This document shows positions 12,698-23,207 of a DNA stretch of 64,000 nucleotides, in pieces (the stretch's first letter is position 1; the number at the start of each line of letters is the position of its first letter). The notes below the pieces were generated by a model. It ran no database searches, was not told the origin of the DNA, and was given only the letters and a program-made list of their open reading frames with translations. The stretch is from Longimicrobiales bacterium (GTDB lineage: Bacteria; Gemmatimonadota; Gemmatimonadetes; Longimicrobiales; Gaopeijiaceae): the NCBI GenBank assembly GCA_029245345.1, contig JAQWPM010000021.1, forward strand, positions 1 through 64,000, written 5' to 3'. Made by a program: the position numbers and the translations under genes.

Positions 12698-15313
12698 TCA
12701 AGACTCTCCGTAAAACGCAGCAACCTTGCGGCGAACGTCAGTCCAGGCACCCTTCACGAAAGGCGCGTCTGGAAGCGACTCTCGGAGATACCGTCCATAT
12801 CGCTTGGAAACGATACGGTCGTCCAAGATGAGAACCGCCCCGCGATCCGTACGCGACCGAATCAGTCGCCCGAATCCCTGCTTCAAGCGCAATGCTGCAT
12901 GAGGGAGCATGAAGTCGTGGAATGGGTCGCCATTGGCACGTTCTATGGCCTCCATTCTCGCCGCCGTGATGGGTTCGGTCGGGACCCGAAACGGCAGTTT
13001 TTGGATGATGAGCCCCCGGAGCGGATCACCGGGGACATCCACACCCTCCCAAAACGAAGAGGTGCCAAGCAGAATACCGCGGCCAGCCTTCGTAAATCGA
13101 TCCAACAGCCGATGGCGGGTGTCCTCCCCTTGTACGAAAAGTGGCCATTTCCCGTCCGCTCCCCGGACCCTCAATAATTCTGCTACTCGCCTCAGAGCGC
13201 TATGGGACGTGAAGAGGACGAAAAGGCCCCCGTCACTCATCTGGGCGAGCTCGATCGTGATCTCCGTCGTCGCCGCCTGGAACTCACTCGCCCCTCCCTC
13301 CGGAGCGGGCAGGTCGGTCGGCACTACAAGTAGGGACTGCTCCGTGAACTCAAAGGGGGACAGCACCTTACGTTCATGTATCTCAGGCACATTCTCTATG
13401 TGTTTCAGATGCGCTTGGTCTAAGCCGAGCCTGCCTTTGAGAAAATCGAAGCGGTTCCGGGTCGTCAGCGTGGCCGAAGTAAGTACGGTCGTATCGGCTC
13501 GGGTGAATAGGCCATCCACGAGTAGCTCCCCAAGGTCGATCGGAGCCGCTGCCATGACGATGTTCCGGTGCTTCCCCTGCCCCCGAGTCTCAAGCCAACG
13601 AACGAAGGTGTGAGACTCCTCGTCCGGGGCGAGGACCACTTGGAGTCCATGCGTAGCCCCGGAAATGCGCCGTTCGACAGAGCGGATGTCCAACACCCTT
13701 CCCTGTAGCGCGTCCGTGATCTCTTCAAACACTTCGATGCGCGTGCGCAATTCTCTCAATTCACGCTCGAGTGTGTTCAGCGACGACACCGTCGCGTTCA
13801 GCCGTTCCCGGATATCCTCACGATCTGCTGGCTCCCCAATACCGGACGGCCCAAGCCGCACAGTGCTCTCCCCAGGAGGCACGAAGAACTCCATCGTCTC
13901 AATGAAGCCTTCGACGCTGCCGCGAGCACGGGAAAGCGCTGGCCGCACCCGATTCTCCAGCCGTTCACGGAGATCAGGGCCTTGGTCGAATCCCGCCAAG
14001 GCCTCGTGAACCGCGGTGAGGACGCCCCGCCCCCTACGATCGAGCCTCGAGAGCATCCGAAAGAGGCCAACTCGGGTCAGTTCGACACCAAGGTGCGACG
14101 TAGCTGCGTCTTCAACATTGTGGGCCTCGTCCAGTACGACCCGAGTATATGCCGGGAGCACCGCGGCTTGGGTGTAGTTCTGCGTGGCACGACGGACGGC
14201 AAGGTCGGTGAACAGCAGGTGGTGGTTCACGATCAGGACCTCAGCCGATGCCGCTTTCCGCCGCGCATTCTGATAAAAACAGGCCTGGAAGTGCGGACAG
14301 CGGGCCCGGAGGCACATATCCGGGTCGCTTCGGACCTCATCCCAGGTGTCGTTCTGCGGCGTAAACGGGAGGTCCGACCGGGAACCGTCTTCGGTCGATT
14401 CAACCCACTCCAGCAGCGCTCGCATCTCTTCGGCCCTGTCATCCTCGAATAGTGAGGCCTGGCCCTCCGCCGCCAGAAAAGCCCGGCGGATGGATATGTA
14501 GTTGCCCCGCCCCTTTACCAGAGCCCATCGGACATCCCCGACGATCGACTGGACCAGCGGTAGGTCCTTCCTGGCGAGCTGTTCCTGGAGGTTGATGGTA
14601 TTCGTGGAGAGGACCGTGCGTTCGCCGTTTTCCTGTGCCCATCGCACCGCGGGAATGAGGTACGCGAGGGACTTGCCCGTCCCCGTCCCCGCCTCAACGA
14701 TGGAGACGCCCCCTTCGTTGAACCGATCCACCACGCTTCGGAGCATCTCTCGTTGCCCCGGACGGTTTTCATACCCCGGAAACCTTGCGGCCAGGGCCCC
14801 TCCAGGCGCGATGAGCGCATCTAGGCCGTCAGCGTCGAGGGGCACTACGACGCGCGGCGCCGGCGGCTCGACCACGACATACAACTTTGTCGCGGCATTA
14901 TCCACGATCGCCGTCCCCATACCCTGTTCATACAGGTGCGCCGCAACGTTCATATCCGCGTCGGATGGCTCGAGCACTCCGCTCGGGTGGTTATGAATCA
15001 TGACCCCACCTTCTTCGGCGTCTCGGGCTGCAACGAGGACAGCGTCGAAGTTGCCGCGAGATACCGCTCGAGGCTCCGTGATCACTCGGTCCACGTCGAC
15101 CTTGGCAAGGAAGCATACCTCCCGCCCCCCCGCACGCTCGATCTCCGCACTGATCCGAGCACTCGCGTCACTCGACAGTGACAAGGGTGTGGGAGGAGGG
15201 GCGGAGCGTTTGGGCCCCGCAGGCACATCCTCCTCCTCCAAACCGTCCAACCCGACCAGGACTTCCTTAGGAAGACGCAGAGGGAAACCGTCTGGGACGT
15301 CGCCGGGGCTCAA
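12698..15313 (-). CDS. JAMM (RadC-like) domain fused to DinG-family DNA helicase
   Basis: An 871-residue fusion. Residues ~50-150 hold a RadC/JAMM-type metal site: HNHPSG at 107-112, then SDAD at 117-120. Residues ~185-870 form an XPD/DinG superfamily 2 helicase: Walker A AGTGTGKS (208-215), NLQEQLA, DEAH (395-398), GTSSFWEGVDVPG and QGFGRLIRSRTDRG (motif VI). The Fe-S cluster region keeps three Cys (334, 339, 345; spacing x4, x5), but the first ligand position, after KGRGNY, is Ser274 (codon TCC). DinG helicases unwind branched DNA and R-loops. The N-terminal JAMM replaces the exonuclease found in some Firmicute DinG proteins. The start overlaps the upstream GATase1-like gene by ATGA. Confidence 0.9.
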   Translation of the reverse strand: MSPGDVPDGFPLRLPKEVLVGLDGLEEEDVPAGPKRSAPPPTPLSLSSDASARISAEIERAGGREVCFLAKVDVDRVITEPRAVSRGNFDAVLVAARDAEEGGVMIHNHPSGVLEPSDADMNVAAHLYEQGMGTAIVDNAATKLYVVVEPPAPRVVVPLDADGLDALIAPGGALAARFPGYENRPGQREMLRSVVDRFNEGGVSIVEAGTGTGKSLAYLIPAVRWAQENGERTVLSTNTINLQEQLARKDLPLVQSIVGDVRWALVKGRGNYISIRRAFLAAEGQASLFEDDRAEEMRALLEWVESTEDGSRSDLPFTPQNDTWDEVRSDPDMCLRARCPHFQACFYQNARRKAASAEVLIVNHHLLFTDLAVRRATQNYTQAAVLPAYTRVVLDEAHNVEDAATSHLGVELTRVGLFRMLSRLDRRGRGVLTAVHEALAGFDQGPDLRERLENRVRPALSRARGSVEGFIETMEFFVPPGESTVRLGPSGIGEPADREDIRERLNATVSSLNTLERELRELRTRIEVFEEITDALQGRVLDIRSVERRISGATHGLQVVLAPDEESHTFVRWLETRGQGKHRNIVMAAAPIDLGELLVDGLFTRADTTVLTSATLTTRNRFDFLKGRLGLDQAHLKHIENVPEIHERKVLSPFEFTEQSLLVVPTDLPAPEGGASEFQAATTEITIELAQMSDGGLFVLFTSHSALRRVAELLRVRGADGKWPLFVQGEDTRHRLLDRFTKAGRGILLGTSSFWEGVDVPGDPLRGLIIQKLPFRVPTEPITAARMEAIERANGDPFHDFMLPHAALRLKQGFGRLIRSRTDRGAVLILDDRIVSKRYGRYLRESLPDAPFVKGAWTDVRRKVAAFYGES

Positions 15314-16575
15314 GTCTTGAGCTTCTGCTTCTTCGCGGCCGGGAAGAGGACGTTGTTGAGAATCAGGCGATATCCAGCCGAATTCGGATGCAGAGCCAGG
15401 TCCGTCGGAGGATCCCCAATTTGGTGCTCTGGATCTTCGGGGTCATGGCCGCCGAAATACGTCCAAGTGCCTTCACCCAGATTGCCATGCACGTACTTCG
15501 CCCAGCCACCCTCCTGGGCGAGAACGATTGTGCCGGACTTGATGCGGTCCTCACGGAACGACGTCGTGAGTCCGTAAAAATCGGGCAAAACCGACTCATG
15601 GTTCTGAGTCAGCATGGAGGGAACCGGGTCGAACTTGGCGGAAAAATCGAAGAGCGTATAGACACCAAGCTCCTTCCGCCACGGCGTGTTCACCTGATGC
15701 CCGTCGATGTCGGAAAAGGAACTCACCGACGGCGCGATCTGCACCTCCGCACCTTCAAAAGCGAGCGTTTGCCCCCAGTCCAGTTGAGCTGAAGCGTTCG
15801 CGTCAGGGGGAGTTCCGTCCGAATAGGCGGCAGAGATGTCCACGTCTCGCGCTGCCAAGGCGAGTTCGAGCGTTTCAGTCGCTGAACACATGGCAAAGAG
15901 GAACCCGCCGTTCTCGACGTATGCGCGCATGCGCGCGGCAACCTCTTTTTTCAACGCGGGCACATCGGAGAAGCCACCAGAGCGCGCCACCTCCTGATTA
16001 CGTGCCACCTCCTCCTGAAGCCACGGTGCCCCCGCGTACGTCAGATAGAACTTCGAGTACTGACCGGTGAAGTCCTCATGGTGCAGATGGATCCACTCAT
16101 AGTCGTTCAGGTCCTCGTTCAGCACTTGAGGGTCCCAAATCGTCTCGTATTCAATGCCGGCGTACTCCAGTACCATGGTGACCGCATCATCCCACGGGGT
16201 GGAATTTGGCGGTGTGTAGATCGCGACCTTTGGGGCACGCTCGAGCGGAACAGCCTCCATGTTCGAGCCCGCAATCGTCGCTCTAATACGTGCCTCCGCA
16301 GAAGCATCAACCGTGGAAATCGATACGCCCCTGACGGCTGCCTCACGCCGCAACTCAGGTGTGTCCGGCAATAAGAACGAGCCCCCGCGGTAGTTGAGGA
16401 GCCATTCGCTCTTCTCGTCCTGTTGGAGCGCCCAGTAGGTCAGGCCGTAGGCTCGTAGATGGTTCTGTTGCTGCCCGTCCATAGGCACCAGGAGCCACTG
16501 TGCCTCTATGGAAGCCGGCGACAACGCCACAACCATCATCAGGGTGGCAGAGACCACGATCCACAGGCGCTTCAT
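15310..16575 (-). CDS. Secreted GATase1-like protein (often auto-labelled asparagine synthetase B)
   Basis: A 421-residue protein with a signal peptide (MKRLWIVVSATLMMVVAL ... EAQ) and therefore predicted periplasmic. It opens with LLVPMDGQQQNHLRAYGL and then has a GATase1-like Rossmann unit: KVAIYTPPN, DYEWIHLHHEDFTGQ, then RAYVENGGFLFAMCSATE with a Cys (residue ~229) at a nucleophile-elbow position. The C-terminal half contains GGHDPEDPEHQIGD and NSAGYRLILNNVLFP. Relatives in Bacteroidota carry the label asparagine synthetase B, but no Asn synthetase domain is visible, so I reject that name. Coupled by ATGA at both ends to the TPR-like and helicase genes. Confidence 0.8.
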   Translation of the reverse strand: MKRLWIVVSATLMMVVALSPASIEAQWLLVPMDGQQQNHLRAYGLTYWALQQDEKSEWLLNYRGGSFLLPDTPELRREAAVRGVSISTVDASAEARIRATIAGSNMEAVPLERAPKVAIYTPPNSTPWDDAVTMVLEYAGIEYETIWDPQVLNEDLNDYEWIHLHHEDFTGQYSKFYLTYAGAPWLQEEVARNQEVARSGGFSDVPALKKEVAARMRAYVENGGFLFAMCSATETLELALAARDVDISAAYSDGTPPDANASAQLDWGQTLAFEGAEVQIAPSVSSFSDIDGHQVNTPWRKELGVYTLFDFSAKFDPVPSMLTQNHESVLPDFYGLTTSFREDRIKSGTIVLAQEGGWAKYVHGNLGEGTWTYFGGHDPEDPEHQIGDPPTDLALHPNSAGYRLILNNVLFPAAKKQKLKT

Positions 16576-18341
16576 CGGGTACGTGCTCTCAGGCGCTCGA
16601 GTTCGAGGCGGGCATCGGGAACCACAGCAGCGTTCGGTCGCGCGACAATGAGGCTCTCGAGCAAGAGGATGGCTTCTGCCACCCCACCGGGAGTACGCGC
16701 CTTATGGCGGGCCAGAGAGAGGGACGCTTCGCCGAACTCCGGCGTGTCTTCATAGGTGGCCACCAAGATTTCTCGAATGGAGGCGGCAACTCCACTGGCG
16801 CCTGCGCGGTCAGCGATGCGAGCCGCCTCCGCTACCAAAGGCGCACGCTCCTCTTCTTCGAGTTCGCCGGCGGCCTCCGCCAGTATCTGCGCGGCAGCGG
16901 CGCCTTGACCTCGATGCGCGAGGACGCCCGCTTCGGCAAGCAAAACCGCACCGGTCTCGGAAGCCCTCCCCATGAGCCCTGCGAACTGAATGATGTCGGT
17001 GGCCTCTGTGGGGGGAAGCCCACCAATGGCCAGGAGAAGAGCTCTTCGTCCAGCTTCGAGTTCACCCGCGTCCAAGAGCAAGTAGCCCCTTTCCAGGCCG
17101 CTCTTCGGACCTTCGATACCCTCGAGGACTGCCGCGGCGCCTCCTAGGTCGCCGCGTGCTTGAAGGCCGCCAGCTACCGTGGCCGCCAAGTCGTCCAACT
17201 CCGGCGCGTTCGGGAAGGCATCCCTGAAGTCCCTCAGAAGTACACCTAGGCGACCCGGGTCGGACTCTGTACTCTCGAGGCGAATCACCTGCGCGGTCGC
17301 ACGCCTGCGGTCGACCGATCCTGGAGAGAAGGAATCCGCGACCCGCCGCTGGGCCTCCAGAGCCGTTGCTGTATCTCCGTTGGCGAGCGCCACATCGATG
17401 ATTCGTTGGTCGAATTGTCGCCGCTCGGACGGGCTGGAGGCATCTTGACCCAGTTCGTCGTACGCCCACGAAGCGGTGCGCGCGAGGTCACCTTCACGGG
17501 CACGCCGTGCAACGTCGGCCAGGAAGCTGGCTCGCGCCCTCTCTTCCAGATCGGCAGCCACCGACTGCGCGAGGTCGAACGACTCTTCCTCCAAGCGGAG
17601 ATCGAGCGCGACGCGCGCGCCCGCAAGGCGCCTGGCAAGCACGTCAGACTCCCCGAGAAGCCCCACGAGTTGTTTGCCGGCCTCCTCTGCCCCTTCGGTC
17701 AAACCCTGCACTCTCCGAGCGATGGCGGCCGCCTGTGCCCCATCATCGCCAACCGCGAGCGCCCACTCTTCGACGGCGTCCTCACGGTCGCCCATGGCTG
17801 CGTGGAGATCTCCCACCTCCAGGGCGAGCGCCTCTGGGCGGTCCATTTCGCGTCGTCCCTTGAGCAGGACGCTCAAGGCTCGTTCGGATCCAAACGCCCG
17901 TTCGTACACCCGAGCGACCTCCCGATAGGGGACCTCACTGTCCTCATCGAGTTCGAACCACAGTTCAGCCTCTCGCTCCAACTCGTCGAGCGAGTCCAGC
18001 TCCATGAGGAGTCGGAGCTTCAAGTAGCGGACGCCCGAGGAAGACGGCTCGTGTTCCAAAAAGGTGTCCACCGCGGGAAGAATCCTGGCGGTCTCACCCC
18101 TCGCGCGAAGCACCCGCTCCAGGGCGTGTAGTCCTCCGGACGAAGCTGGATCCTCCTCGAGGAGTTGCCTAAGGAGCTCCTCGGCCCCGGAGAAGTCTCC
18201 TCGGGACTCACGGGCCGCGGCGTCCCGAAGAAGGCGCCCTTCACTACTGTTGCGACGACTCTGGGCGGAGCCGGCCGCAGCCGTCAGCGCGAGAGCGATC
18301 ATGGCAATGCCGAGCAAGCGGAAGTCGAAGAAGCGTCTCAT
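16572..18341 (-). CDS. Secreted TPR-like repeat protein
   Basis: A 589-residue protein with a signal peptide (MRRFFDFRLLGIAMIALAL ... GSAQ), then helical Ala/Leu/Glu-rich repeats. The first part reads like tetratricopeptide units (AAARESRGDFSGAEELLRQ, PASSGGLHALERVLRARGE). Later repeats are divergent (GYLLLDAGELEAGRRALLL; LEAQRRVADSFSP). It probably acts as a periplasmic scaffold. It is coupled by 4-bp overlaps to the DUF4175-like gene upstream and the GATase1-like gene downstream, so a structural role together with those proteins is the simplest reading. Confidence 0.75.
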   Translation of the reverse strand: MRRFFDFRLLGIAMIALALTAAAGSAQSRRNSSEGRLLRDAAARESRGDFSGAEELLRQLLEEDPASSGGLHALERVLRARGETARILPAVDTFLEHEPSSSGVRYLKLRLLMELDSLDELEREAELWFELDEDSEVPYREVARVYERAFGSERALSVLLKGRREMDRPEALALEVGDLHAAMGDREDAVEEWALAVGDDGAQAAAIARRVQGLTEGAEEAGKQLVGLLGESDVLARRLAGARVALDLRLEEESFDLAQSVAADLEERARASFLADVARRAREGDLARTASWAYDELGQDASSPSERRQFDQRIIDVALANGDTATALEAQRRVADSFSPGSVDRRRATAQVIRLESTESDPGRLGVLLRDFRDAFPNAPELDDLAATVAGGLQARGDLGGAAAVLEGIEGPKSGLERGYLLLDAGELEAGRRALLLAIGGLPPTEATDIIQFAGLMGRASETGAVLLAEAGVLAHRGQGAAAAQILAEAAGELEEEERAPLVAEAARIADRAGASGVAASIREILVATYEDTPEFGEASLSLARHKARTPGGVAEAILLLESLIVARPNAAVVPDARLELERLRARTR

Positions 18342-21300
18342 CGTCCGCTCCCCCCAGATCCGCCTCGATTCAATCGGTCGAAGTACTGAATGACGAGTTG
18401 TCGCACCGCCGGACTGAGATTCTGAAGCTGGCTTGCGTCCGGGAGTTGGAATCGGAGCGCCCCCATTTGGTCGGCAGTGAGTGGAATCACCTGGCCCCGC
18501 TCGAATGCTTCAGGGGTTTCCGATTCACGTTCGTCGGAGTACTCCTCACGCTCAAGGGAGCGGCCGGCGTCAAGCAGCCTATGAAAGAGCCGCTCCTGCC
18601 TCTGCGTCATATCCGGAGTGAGACGTCCTTGGGCGAGTTGTTGCGCGATCGCGGCGGCTTCATCGGCGAGCTGCTGGAGGTCTCCGAGTGATTCCTCAGC
18701 CCCCGGCTCGTCCGCGAGTTCGCCGAGTTCGTCGGCTACGGACTCCTGACCCTGCGCCATCTCTTGCATCTGTTCAGCCATCGCCTGCTCCCCCAGCTCC
18801 ATGGGCATGACTTGGCTGGTCTGATTCATCAACTCCGCCTGCTGCTGGGCAAGCTGCTCAAGCTGCTCGGAGACCTCTTCACCGCTCTGGCCCTCACCCT
18901 GCTGGCTCATCTGCTCTGCTCCAGCGATGGCCATGAGGGCAAGTTGGTTCAGGTCACCTACCGTTTGTTCGGCTTGTGCGGTCGGCGACGGAGTAGCTCC
19001 GCGACGATTCTCCATCGCCGCGATGGTTTTCTGGATGGACTCCATGCTCATGCCCATCTGCGCAGACAATTCCCGCTGTCCCTGCACGCCACCCTGAGAC
19101 GCCATCTGAAGATTGTCGGCCATATTCTGCACGCCCTGAAGCAACGAAGCCTCGTCCGCGCGCATCGCGGAGATTCGTTCCTGGCTAGCACCCCTCATCT
19201 GCTCTCGGAGCTCCGTCTGTCGGCGCGCCAGCGATAGCGCATCGTCCGCCGTCTGCCGGAGGGCCGCCTGAGCCTGCTCCATTTGCTGCTGAGCCATCTC
19301 CTGTTGGGCTTCCTGAAGTTCTTCCGCCACGTCCTGCATTTCCTCGGCGGCCTCTTCAGCGGTCTCACCCGCTTCTTGGTTTTCACCTTGGTCGGCCTGC
19401 TGCTGCGCCTGCTGCATCTGCTGTTGAGCCTGCTCCAACGACTCTCGCGCCTTCTGCACACCCTCCTGGGCGTCCTGCTCGTCAATCTGACCCAGGCGTT
19501 CCTCTAGCCGTTCCATCTGGTCCTCAAGCTGTTCTGAGCGCTCGGCCAGTTCCTCTTGCTGCTCGGCACGAAGTTCGGGGTTGTCCTCTTCGCGCATCGC
19601 GTCAGCCAGGGCCTCTTCTTGGCGTGCGAGCTCTTCTGCTTCGCTCGTCGTCGCTCGGAAGTCCTGTTCCACTGCAGCTCTGCGGAAGCGTTCCAGTGAC
19701 TCCTCCAGACGCGCCTGGAAGTCCTCCTGCTCTTCCGCCATCTCGCTCAGCGATTCGTTCGCCTGCTCCAGGTCGTCTTCCTCCAGAGCGTCCGACAGCT
19801 CCTCCATACGCTGTTGGAGATCGCTGCCGTTCAACTGCTCCATCAACTCCTGAAGTTCCTTGAGGTCGTCGGAGAGCTCTGGGTCCGCCTGGCCCGCATT
19901 CTCCATCATCCTCTCGAGCTCTTCTAGCTCGGCGCGGAGAGAGTCCACCTCGCTTGCAAGCTGCTCCTGACTCTCGAGCGCATTCTCCAGCTCTTCCCGC
20001 TCCTCGAATCCGGCCTGGTCCTGTCTTTGATTCTGCTGCCCCTCATTGGCAGCAGTTTCCATGGCCTGATCCCGGTTGGCCTCAGCTTGTTTGGCTGCCT
20101 CTGCCGCCAACTCCTCCAATCGATTCGCAACATCGTCCAGCTCCTCTTCGGCCGCACGCTGCATCTCCACTGCATCCGGCATTCGGAGGATGTACTCGCG
20201 CGTGACCGCCGTCTGCGCACCAGGCGCGTTGTCTACGGCTCGTGCGAAGTATCGAATCGTGTCGCCCGGGAGCAGCCCCCACGTCCTCAGGTCGAGAAGC
20301 GGTCGCGCCAAGGCCGCTCGGGTCCCGCCCAGGTCCATGGCTTGAACCGTTGGCTCCAGTCGATCGCCGAACGAGGTCACGCGGTATGCGACCAGTTCCA
20401 CGCGCCGGAGGCCATAGTCGTCGGTGGCCTCAAGAATCAGCGGCTGACGCAGATTGAGGGGGAGAATCGTGTCGCGCCCTGGCAGCGGGATCCCCACATG
20501 GGGTGCCAAGTCAGGGACGACCGACACCATCAATGGCTCAGGTTGGATCTCCGCCGGATCACCCTGATCGTCTACGAAGTCCCAGTCGAATACCCCATCA
20601 ACCCTCGGCGACCACGAGCCTTGGAACGTGGCCCCAGAGACACTCAAAGAGACGGCCTGGGCTCCGGTGGAGTCCACAAGAGCCGCTGTCACAAGGGCGC
20701 GACTCGCACGACCCTCAAAACTGACCGTCGTTCCGACCGGAAGCCGGAGCGAAGGCGGGTCTCCCCGATACTCGTCGGGCGCCAATCCCGTATGAGGCGG
20801 ATACACCACGCTGACGATCAAGTCGCTCACGAAGAGCGGATCGATGGGAGAGATGCGGAAGCGCTCTGTTTCCGACCCGTCATCCCCGGTGACGTGGTAA
20901 TCGATCGGGGCACCGACCGAACGGAACAGGTAGCCCCCGCGTTCCTCGATCAGTTCGAGGACTTCTGTGCGGGCGACGTCGCCTGCGGCTTGCCAAGAGA
21001 GCACCGCCCCGAGTCGGCCGGGAGCCTGAACCATGACTTGCACGTCGGAGCCTCGGAGAACTTCGACAGTACCAGGTGAGACCACGATCGGGAGCAGAAC
21101 TGGATCTCGCATCGTCCCGATTGGAGACGACAAGGAGGACCAAGCAAGGGCCGATCGGGTTGGTGATGCCACAGCAAGACCAATCAAGACGATCGCAATC
21201 GTCCCGAACACACCCAAGCCACGCTTCGTCCACAGCGAAACCGTCTCCCCCAACCCACCTGCCAGCTCCTTAGGCACTCTGTCCCCAAGGTCAGCTACGG

Positions 21301-21688
21301 TGCGTTCGGCAGCCCGGCCGGCCAGGGCAGCAGACACCCCGTCGGGAAGTGACCGCGCCAGCTCAATGGACCCACGCACGACACCTGGGCGAAGCCCAGC
21401 AGCCGTTTCGATCGCGGAAGAGAGGGGTGCCTCAGCGAACCACTCCGACACACGCCCTCTATAGAACAGCGTCCCGCCTACCACGAGAACGAGGGCGATG
21501 CCGTCGAGAATCGCGGGCACGTCGCTCCCTGGCCTCCATCCATTCGGGCCGGCCAGAAACCACGCGACGACCAGGAGCAGGCTGACACCTGTGACAGTCC
21601 AAATCACCGCGGCCGTCGCAGCTCTCTTCTTGAGATGCTCACGGACGGCACGAACGCGACCGTCCAAGTTCCCCGATGCTGGACTCAA
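18338..21688 (-). CDS. DUF4175-like membrane protein with long Gln/Glu coiled coil
   Basis: A 1116-residue protein. I start it at TTG 21688, which overlaps the DUF4159 stop as TTGA and has AGGGGGT upstream; the open frame extends further but begins with a Cys/Arg-rich, non-protein-like stretch. Three membrane segments follow: TAAVIWTVTGVSLLLVVAW (~25-48), AILDGIALVLVVGGTLF (~57-75) and GVFGTIAIVLIGLAVAS (~160-178). Residues ~200-500 look like Ig-type beta domains (VLLPIVVSPGTVEVLRGSD). Residues ~510-1010 are a very Glu/Gln/Ala-rich coiled coil with NxxMQQAQQQ-type runs. This matches the DUF4175 layout; the function of that family is not known. Confidence 0.82.
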   Translation of the reverse strand: MSPASGNLDGRVRAVREHLKKRAATAAVIWTVTGVSLLLVVAWFLAGPNGWRPGSDVPAILDGIALVLVVGGTLFYRGRVSEWFAEAPLSSAIETAAGLRPGVVRGSIELARSLPDGVSAALAGRAAERTVADLGDRVPKELAGGLGETVSLWTKRGLGVFGTIAIVLIGLAVASPTRSALAWSSLSSPIGTMRDPVLLPIVVSPGTVEVLRGSDVQVMVQAPGRLGAVLSWQAAGDVARTEVLELIEERGGYLFRSVGAPIDYHVTGDDGSETERFRISPIDPLFVSDLIVSVVYPPHTGLAPDEYRGDPPSLRLPVGTTVSFEGRASRALVTAALVDSTGAQAVSLSVSGATFQGSWSPRVDGVFDWDFVDDQGDPAEIQPEPLMVSVVPDLAPHVGIPLPGRDTILPLNLRQPLILEATDDYGLRRVELVAYRVTSFGDRLEPTVQAMDLGGTRAALARPLLDLRTWGLLPGDTIRYFARAVDNAPGAQTAVTREYILRMPDAVEMQRAAEEELDDVANRLEELAAEAAKQAEANRDQAMETAANEGQQNQRQDQAGFEEREELENALESQEQLASEVDSLRAELEELERMMENAGQADPELSDDLKELQELMEQLNGSDLQQRMEELSDALEEDDLEQANESLSEMAEEQEDFQARLEESLERFRRAAVEQDFRATTSEAEELARQEEALADAMREEDNPELRAEQQEELAERSEQLEDQMERLEERLGQIDEQDAQEGVQKARESLEQAQQQMQQAQQQADQGENQEAGETAEEAAEEMQDVAEELQEAQQEMAQQQMEQAQAALRQTADDALSLARRQTELREQMRGASQERISAMRADEASLLQGVQNMADNLQMASQGGVQGQRELSAQMGMSMESIQKTIAAMENRRGATPSPTAQAEQTVGDLNQLALMAIAGAEQMSQQGEGQSGEEVSEQLEQLAQQQAELMNQTSQVMPMELGEQAMAEQMQEMAQGQESVADELGELADEPGAEESLGDLQQLADEAAAIAQQLAQGRLTPDMTQRQERLFHRLLDAGRSLEREEYSDERESETPEAFERGQVIPLTADQMGALRFQLPDASQLQNLSPAVRQLVIQYFDRLNRGGSGGSGR

Positions 21689-22353
21689 GACACCCCCTGA
21701 CCCAGTACAAAAAGGAACAGATTCACGCCCATACGAATCGCCTGCTCGCGCACATCTGCAGGATCCTCGTGAACACCTGCATCCTCCCACCCATCTCCCA
21801 GATCCGACTCAAACGAGTAGAACACCACCATTCGTCCCTCGTAGAAGATCCCAAACGCCTGAGGCGGTGCGCCATCATGCTCGTGGATCTTCGGCAACCC
21901 TTCCGGGAAGTCATAGAACGTATGGAAGACAGGATGCTCGGGCGGGATCTCCGTGAGTTCAGCATCCGGAAAGATCTTCGCGATCTCCTCCCGGAACGAT
22001 TCATCGAGCCCATAGTTGTCATCCGCGTGCAGGAATCCGCCTGCAAGCAGGTATTCGCGTATCGTCGCCCGTTCTGCGTTGGAGAATCGGACGTCACCGT
22101 GACCCGTCATGTACAAATATGGATGATCGAACAAACCCGGATCGAGAGGGCGAACATTAGTTTCTTCGCGCGCTACGGAAATGCCGGATCGTTCTCGAAT
22201 CGCGGACAACAGATTCGAGAGTGACGACGGGTTTGCGTACCAATCTCCACCACCTTCGTACTGTAGCCGCGCGATCGTTATCGAATCGGTGGCAACGGGT
22301 ACTGAAGGTGTGATGGGACCCGCCAACAGGGCTGTCAGGAGCATCCAACTCAT
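21685..22353 (-). CDS. DUF4159 family secreted protein
   Basis: A 222-residue protein with a short signal sequence (MSWMLLTALLAGPITPSVP) and the DUF4159 core: ITIARLQYEGGGDWYANPS, HPYLYMTGHGDVRFSNAE, then REYLLAGGFLHADDNYG and HPVFHTFYDFPEGLP. The fold is GATase1-like, but the nucleophile-elbow position is Asp rather than Cys, so catalysis is doubtful. DUF4159 genes often sit with MoxR, DUF58 and vWA genes in other bacteria; none of those is here. The start overlaps rsmI by ATGA, and its stop overlaps the TTG of the DUF4175-like gene. Confidence 0.88.
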   Translation of the reverse strand: MSWMLLTALLAGPITPSVPVATDSITIARLQYEGGGDWYANPSSLSNLLSAIRERSGISVAREETNVRPLDPGLFDHPYLYMTGHGDVRFSNAERATIREYLLAGGFLHADDNYGLDESFREEIAKIFPDAELTEIPPEHPVFHTFYDFPEGLPKIHEHDGAPPQAFGIFYEGRMVVFYSFESDLGDGWEDAGVHEDPADVREQAIRMGVNLFLFVLGQGVS

Positions 22354-23207
22354 ACGTCTTCTGTGTCCTCACGGAGGCTTTGGACGATACGGTACGCGTC
22401 GTTCCGCGATAGGTCGAGACGGGCGGCCAAATCCTTTGCAGCCTCAGAAGGCTTGACCCCCTCGGAGAGGAGGTCACGAGCCACTTCCCGCCCCCGGTCC
22501 ATCAGCTGCGCGTGAACCTCTTCGGACTCCTCATCACCGCTCGGAGCAACGACGAACGTGACCTCGCCCCGCGGCTCATTCTCCTGGTAGTAGGCGAGCA
22601 CCTCCACGAGAGTGCCTCTCTGGAACTCTTCATAGATCTTCGTCAACTCACGCGCTACGGCGACTTCTCGCTGTGCCCCACAGGCGTCCATCAGGTCTTG
22701 AAGCAGACGGACGGTACGTTGCGGAGATTCGAAGAGTACAACGGTCTCGTTCGACGTCCTCACACGCTCGAGCAGAGCCCGTCGCCCACCTCCCTTTTTG
22801 TCCGGAAAGCCGAGGAAGGCAAAACGCTCCGTCGGAAGACCCGACCCGACCAACGCCGCGAGCACGGCTGAAGCACCTGGAATCGGCACGACGTCGTGTC
22901 CGGCGTCGGCGACTCGCTTCACCAACGACTCGCCCGGGTCGGACACCAATGGAGTCCCTGCGTCGGACACGAGCGCGACATTCTCTCCGGAATCGAGCCA
23001 TCCCATGACGGACGCCACTCGCCCTCTTTCGTTGTGTTGATGCAGCGACACGAGACGTGCCTCAGCGCCCACGCGCTCAGCTAAAGGTCGCGTGCGGCGG
23101 GTATCCTCGGCGAGAATCCGGTCCACCGAACGAAGCACAGCTTCGGCTCGCGCGGACAGATCGCCCAGGTTTCCAATCGGGGTGCTGACGAGATAGAGGG
23201 TAGCCAC
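22350..23207 (-). CDS. rsmI: RsmI, 16S rRNA (cytidine-1402 2'-O)-methyltransferase
   Basis: SAM-dependent enzyme that methylates the ribose of C1402 in 16S rRNA. The 285-residue protein carries the tetrapyrrole-methylase-like fold: LYLVSTPIGNLGDLSARA at the N-terminus, DRILAEDTRRTRPL near residue 30, and LVSDAGTPLVSDPGE near 80. PIPGASAVLAALVGSGLP, GFPDKKGGGRR and AVARELTKIYEEFQRG follow. The start is GTG at 23207, with no Shine-Dalgarno, two bases after the U-tract of the trxA terminator. It heads the coupled chain that ends with the JAMM-DinG gene. Confidence 0.95.
   Translation of the reverse strand: MATLYLVSTPIGNLGDLSARAEAVLRSVDRILAEDTRRTRPLAERVGAEARLVSLHQHNERGRVASVMGWLDSGENVALVSDAGTPLVSDPGESLVKRVADAGHDVVPIPGASAVLAALVGSGLPTERFAFLGFPDKKGGGRRALLERVRTSNETVVLFESPQRTVRLLQDLMDACGAQREVAVARELTKIYEEFQRGTLVEVLAYYQENEPRGEVTFVVAPSGDEESEEVHAQLMDRGREVARDLLSEGVKPSEAAKDLAARLDLSRNDAYRIVQSLREDTEDV

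Follow-up and report, generated by a model that had tools for sequence, protein, structure and literature searches.

A conserved DUF4159-DUF4175-TPR-GAT gene core in Gemmatimonadota and allied phyla, encoding a candidate envelope complex with a putative exported cysteine amidase

In the first 64,000 nucleotides of contig JAQWPM010000021.1 (assembly GCA_029245345.1) of a Longimicrobiales bacterium from the phylum Gemmatimonadota, hereafter the window, six open reading frames (ORFs) lie end to end on the minus strand between positions 12698 and 23207 (Table 1) and, as the initial annotation had stated, neighbouring ORFs share 4 bp (NTGA) at all five junctions. In reading order, they encode RsmI, a DUF4159 protein, a DUF4175-like inner-membrane protein, a secreted TPR-like protein, a secreted GATase-fold protein, here called GAT, and a RadC/JAMM-DinG helicase. 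The whole chain had been taken for an undescribed functional unit, and this reading stands in part: an undescribed unit is supported for DUF4159, DUF4175, TPR and GAT by a gene order found across phyla and by near-perfect co-occurrence of the DUF4159, DUF4175 and GAT proteins, and the six-gene extent is not. Since 4-bp overlaps are common in the window (6 of the 28 other same-strand junctions), five consecutive ones are by themselves suggestive and modest evidence of a unit, for which the real evidence is conservation.

Table 1. Coordinates of the chain genes and of GAT features in the window
Feature	Position	Strand	Evidence and status
rsmI	22350..23207	-	TIGR00096, E=5.3e-66; overlaps the DUF4159 gene; neighbour, not core
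DUF4159 protein, 222 aa, N-terminal signal-like segment	21685..22353	-	PF13709, E=4.9e-68; core gene 1
DUF4175-like inner-membrane protein, 1116 aa, TTG start	18338..21688	-	core gene 2
Secreted TPR-like protein, 589 aa	16572..18341	-	signal peptide from sequence; core gene 3
GAT, secreted GATase-fold protein, 421 aa	15310..16575	-	core gene 4
RadC/JAMM-DinG helicase, TTG start	12698..15313	-	PF04002 and PF13307; overlapping neighbour, not core
GAT signal peptide, residues 1-25	16501..16575	-	direct reading of sequence
GAT Cys230 codon, proposed nucleophile	15886..15888	-	invariant in 50/50 homologues
GAT His377-Asp-Pro-Glu380 codons, proposed His/Glu of triad	15436..15447	-	four residues invariant in 50/50

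Gene order within and beyond the Gemmatimonadota

The order trx-rsmI-DUF4159-DUF4175-TPR-GAT-DinG-FAA is broadly kept in 35 class-level Gemmatimonadota loci, where the tightest coupling is found within DUF4159-DUF4175-TPR-GAT, rsmI being tightly coupled as well. When counted in 39 loci of this phylum, the 4-bp overlap recurs at the DUF4159-DUF4175 (25/30) and TPR-GAT (25/32) junctions, then at rsmI-DUF4159 (19/29) and DUF4175-TPR (17/32), and is least frequent at GAT-DinG (12/32). A scan of genome contigs further returned at least 591 relatives of GAT, the best 80 of which belong to the Gemmatimonadota, Bacteroidota, Neomarinimicrobiota, KSB1, Cloacimonadota, Latescibacterota, Eisenbacteria, Calditrichota and Stahlbacteria, i.e., the Fibrobacteres-Chlorobi-Bacteroidetes (FCB) group and its allies. 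The four-gene order is complete or almost complete in Neomarinimicrobiota (L127, L131, L153), in KSB1 (L105) and at locus L108, and at L127 Pfam confirms DUF4159 (1.8e-70), DUF4175 (5.6e-14) and TPR. DUF4159-DUF4175 lie upstream of GAT in Eisenbacteria (L103) and at L096 and L149, and the TPR-GAT pair occurs alone at L067-L069, L097 and L142. In Bacteroidota-phylum loci whose gene names were read from translations, the arrangement is either TPR-GAT (L232-L236) or TPR-clpX-GAT (L229, L230, L237). As such, the order is not restricted to one lineage; the unit is ancient and we are highly confident in it, its right extent being the four-gene core and not six genes. Two of the loci encountered are probably mis-binned, namely L149 (JABDJQ010000717.1), labelled Gemmatimonadetes and resembling other FCB phyla, and L128 (VHBC01000008.1), labelled Sphingomonadales and showing a Crocinitomicaceae-type gene order.

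That a helicase and an rRNA methylase bracket the envelope genes and act with them, as initially proposed, draws on the rsmI-core-DinG order being conserved through most of the class. Nonetheless, both neighbours adjoin the core in Gemmatimonadota loci only, other phyla carrying it without either; within these loci DinG is in many cases missing or separated by 600-2400 bp. RadC-DinG is also present in six core-less genomes (G016, G021, G023, G032, G052, G127) and absent from three core-bearing ones (G001, G003, G097). Gain and loss of DinG do not depend on the core, and the helicase, being decoupled from it in both directions, was rejected as part of the unit, so that the six-gene reading is largely refuted and highly improbable. 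Concerning the helicase itself (window, 12698-15313; L173-L176), the RadC/JAMM domain is N-terminal in the window protein and seems missing or diverged in the core-less genomes of family f5, since their DinG matches begin at query residue 117-158.

Co-occurrence and joint loss

The distribution of GAT, DUF4159 and DUF4175, hereafter the trio, was followed in 150 Gemmatimonadota and 148 Bacteroidota genomes. In the Gemmatimonadota, chain-type DUF4159 was defined by a score of at least 200 bits, other copies reaching at most 187 bits. GAT is present in 134 of the 150 genomes, and chain-type DUF4159 in 131 of these 134 against 1 of the 16 genomes lacking GAT (Fisher p = 8e-17, uncorrected for phylogeny), the exceptions being mostly fragmented assemblies. 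Among the same 16 genomes, seven have no DUF4175, eight have a weak paralogue-type match only and one (G131) has a fragment. The trio was lost jointly in at least three lineages, namely family f3, part of family f5 and G125 of family f7; G125 is a single-contig genome where all three chain types are absent, and in its genus-mate G120 about 13 kb separate the GAT and DUF4159 genes, which are on opposite strands. In the Bacteroidota, GAT was found in 108 genomes and DUF4159 and DUF4175 in 109 each; the trio occurs in the same 108, the additional copies of G255 being of the paralogous type. There, DUF4159 and DUF4175 adjoin in 38 of the 108 genomes and GAT usually lies elsewhere, so that the trio co-occurs even when unlinked; the presence of GAT within 60 kb of the other two was only slightly above estimated chance and is not used as support. 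High-scoring DUF4159 was likewise found in all 30 non-Gemmatimonadota genomes reached via the named GAT loci.

Such a profile might mirror phylogeny only, if the genes disappeared once or a few times in ancestors and are not functionally linked, and the Bacteroidota losses could indeed be a single event in the Bacteroidales. We consider this improbable given the three or more separate family-level joint losses in the Gemmatimonadota, and given that G125 lacks all three chain types, GAT and DUF4159 lying apart on opposite strands in G120. A control protein, SprA, also behaves otherwise: it is present in 117 of the 148 Bacteroidota genomes, 9 of them lacking GAT, and in 11 Gemmatimonadota that lack it, thus being kept in 20 genomes without GAT. 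As the profile of the trio does not follow SprA, a type IX secretion component was discarded as an identity for it. As a separate observation, SprA_N-like matches occur in very long ORFs of the window genome (G000:C21:369008-369361) and of 95 other Gemmatimonadota genomes, which suggests that type IX secretion machinery is widespread in this phylum.

The core proteins and their predicted structures

A predicted location in the cell envelope is well supported, from sequence, for the core proteins. The window DUF4159 protein scores 229 bits against a Pfam gathering cut-off of 25.9 and has a solved relative (4i66, Hoch_4089; E=6.9e-13). Its motifs GGGDWY, GHG, GGFL..DD and HEHD are invariant across the FCB group, GGFL..DD standing where GAT has GGFLFAMC. 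DUF4159 may share the general fold class of GAT with Asp residues replacing Cys, and because of this replacement it is viewed as a partner or regulator. None of the window DUF4175-like, TPR and GAT proteins is itself matched by a Pfam or NCBIfam model. For the first, PF13779 is hit at E<=0.01 by 15 of the 24 homologues aligned (best 2.4e-28), the L127 and L103 proteins lie above the Pfam cut-off for this family, and BLASTP against the L127 protein gives 1e-54. The AlphaFold model (predicted local distance difference test, pLDDT, 81.5; predicted TM-score, pTM, 0.41) comprises helices at residues 3-45, 57-83 and 144-174, taken as three N-terminal membrane segments, then a beta (Ig-like) ectodomain at about 202-502 and a coiled coil at about 506-1050; a C-terminal motif, RQERLF..LDAGRSLE, is conserved, and Foldseek returned generic Ig/FN3-like ectodomains only. 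The positional homologue of the window TPR protein at L127 is a TPR protein by Pfam (BLASTP 5e-10).

GAT is single-copy in nearly all Gemmatimonadota carriers, with 47-85% identity there and about 50% between phyla. Neither the window protein nor any of 50 aligned members gave a credible Pfam match, and the window protein has none in NCBIfam. Searches of PDB sequences, whether with GAT itself or with its profile as query, returned nothing, nor did a search of the plasmid collection with GAT. Its predicted model (pLDDT 89.5, pTM 0.89) is closest by Foldseek to STM3548 (2gk3; 3.6e-6, TMt 0.57, 10% identity), PdxT (2nv2) and the glutamine amidotransferase TM1158 being matched as well. In this model, Cys230 sits at the elbow between a strand (225-229) and a helix (230-241), which is the nucleophile position in a class-I GATase fold, and Cys230-His377-Glu380 is the putative catalytic triad. 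The N-termini of the L052, L060 and L070 homologues are Tat-like with RR, those elsewhere Sec-like, which indicates from direct reading that GAT is probably exported. Compared with class-I glutamine amidotransferases such as PdxT and TM1158, GAT has the same predicted fold and elbow Cys, and its H-D-P-E resembles their H-P-E; it differs from them in being exported, in that no synthase-like partner was recognised among its neighbours and in its expected substrate. STM3548, presumably a member of PF07090 (GATase1_like), is described as a cytoplasmic protein of 248 residues, whereas GAT is exported, has 421 and is without Pfam match. 'Asparagine synthetase B' is a label for homologues from Bacteroidota; this identity, which implies a class-II Ntn GATase with synthetase domains, was rejected, GAT giving no NCBIfam or Pfam match and having a fold of class-I type. 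A protein of that name from Bizionia, possibly a GAT homologue, figures in an iron-regulator transcriptome (PMC9478572).

The structural searches also bear on another role for a real unit, namely homeostasis of glycans or of the outer membrane instead of division, with GAT and DUF4159 acting as sugar-binding or glycan-processing GATase/ThuA-like proteins on lipopolysaccharide or exopolysaccharide. Foldseek of GAT also returned GH42 beta-galactosidases and other glycosidases, and DUF4159 adjoins an LpxH-like gene in Cloacimonadota. The glycosidase matches are poor, however, with TM-scores on the query of about 0.3 or less, an invariant Cys at the elbow together with HDPE is typical of cysteine amidases, and a cluster of carbohydrate-active enzyme genes around the module was not seen; on balance this role appears somewhat unlikely.

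Related MoxR loci and a possible role in wall synthesis or division

The initial annotation remarked that the usual MoxR, DUF58 and vWA partners of DUF4159 are missing, which holds at the chain, where no MoxR AAA+ ATPase, DUF58 or BatA/vWA was found among the ORFs in or flanking it, but not genome-wide, for two complete loci lie elsewhere. In the first (G000 C24:190000-196200, L071), MoxR-DUF58-BatA precedes a protein of 955 aa whose C-terminal domain is DUF4159. The second (G000 C12:502000-523500, L072/L154) reads DUF4159-GATase1_like(PF07090)-x-TPR-DUF4159-MoxR-DUF58-BatA/vWA-DUF4175, its 1167-aa protein aligning with the window DUF4175-like protein at 9e-14, a weak match that is partly coiled coil. 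In the Latescibacterota (L099), DUF4175-TPR-GAT stands beside MoxR-DUF58. In view of these loci, the module in the window appears to be a sister, lacking MoxR, of the MoxR-DUF58-BatA-DUF4159-DUF4175 machinery. With the MoxR-DUF58-BatA/vWA operons (RL3499-RL3502 or cmdA-D of R. leguminosarum, Bat of Bacteroides) it has DUF4159 in common, as well as exported or membrane proteins, and shares DUF4175, TPR and a GATase1-like protein with the MoxR locus of this genome; unlike them, it lacks MoxR ATPase, DUF58 and vWA and has a separate distribution, and its GAT belongs to a different and far more conserved family than the GATase1-like protein of the MoxR locus. Envelope and morphology phenotypes are reported for MoxR operons, loss of RL3499-3502 giving defects of both kinds (as cited in PMC3893208 and PMC5700661), and a chaperone function in maturation is described for MoxR proteins (PMC3893208). 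The literature search returned no paper on DUF4159, a single one on DUF4175 and none on DUF4159 together with MoxR.

By analogy, the module could be a MoxR-like chaperone or maturation unit for one envelope enzyme complex, e.g., a respiratory or metalloenzyme complex, with no direct catalysis. The homologous set with MoxR, DUF58 and BatA in the same genome, the L099 arrangement and the chaperone activity described for MoxR proteins are in keeping with this; the module is without ATPase, however, and the conservation of GAT is concentrated in enzyme-like site residues, so that we regard maturation as rather unlikely.

Leads to the cell wall come from relatives of the core. In L191, L193, L199, L200 and L201 the order is murC-(murB)-ftsQ-ftsA-ftsZ-DUF4159-DUF4175, FtsZ, FtsA and MurC being confirmed by NCBIfam in L191, and these make up 5 of the 24 examined Bacteroidota-phylum loci with an adjacent pair. 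In L067 and L069, TPR-GAT-murE are 15-43 bp apart (TIGR01085 MurE, 5e-144 and 4e-147). Moreover, a protein for which a DUF4175 domain is reported, AdvA of Acinetobacter baumannii, is essential and acts in division at mid-cell (PMC7481262). Our best guess, offered tentatively and at somewhat less than even odds, is an inner-membrane-anchored periplasmic complex with GAT as a cysteine-amidase subunit, acting in wall synthesis or division. The DUF4175 protein would be the inner-membrane scaffold, its beta ectodomain and long coiled coil extending into the periplasm, the exported TPR protein would serve as adaptor, and DUF4159 as the partner or regulator. GAT, the presumed catalytic subunit with its triad on a class-I GATase fold, could act as an amide hydrolase on an envelope component, the likeliest being a peptidoglycan peptide, a precursor or a protein bound to the wall, and the complex would act in wall synthesis or constriction independently of MoxR. 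Extended to the whole FCB group, such an undescribed complex of an exported cysteine-amidase family, DUF4175 scaffold, DUF4159 and TPR adaptor is a slightly more doubtful proposal still.

Several points weigh against a role in wall synthesis or division. The division and cell wall (dcw) and murE adjacencies are limited to certain lineages, and synteny does not point one way, because rRNA and tRNA genes (rsmG, rsmE, ybeY, mnmG), dnaB and clpX are also neighbours of the core. Many Bacteroidota live without the trio, which is thus not an essential wall function. The profile comparison of DUF4159 with GAT gave a weak match (47% over 21 columns). AdvA, an inner-membrane protein with a DUF4175 domain by report, is a putative relative of the window protein and is not known to have a DUF4159 or GAT context. 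In the literature searched, no experiment on any core protein was found.

GAT is a single-copy, predicted exported and enzyme-like protein present in most sampled Gemmatimonadota and Bacteroidota, yet it has no Pfam or NCBIfam family, and its near-perfect co-occurrence with two DUF families provides a handle for finding the function of all three together. The wall or division model predicts the same phenotype on deleting any one of GAT, DUF4159 or DUF4175.

Regarding the remaining neighbours, a 16S rRNA methyltransferase repeatedly precedes DUF4159 (window, 22350-23207; L160-L162, L166, L167, L192, L211, L214, L215, L217), its type differing by lineage, namely RsmI, RsmE (L160-L162, L166) or RsmG (L167 and five Bacteroidota-phylum loci), and YbeY follows DUF4175 in several Flavobacteria-type loci.

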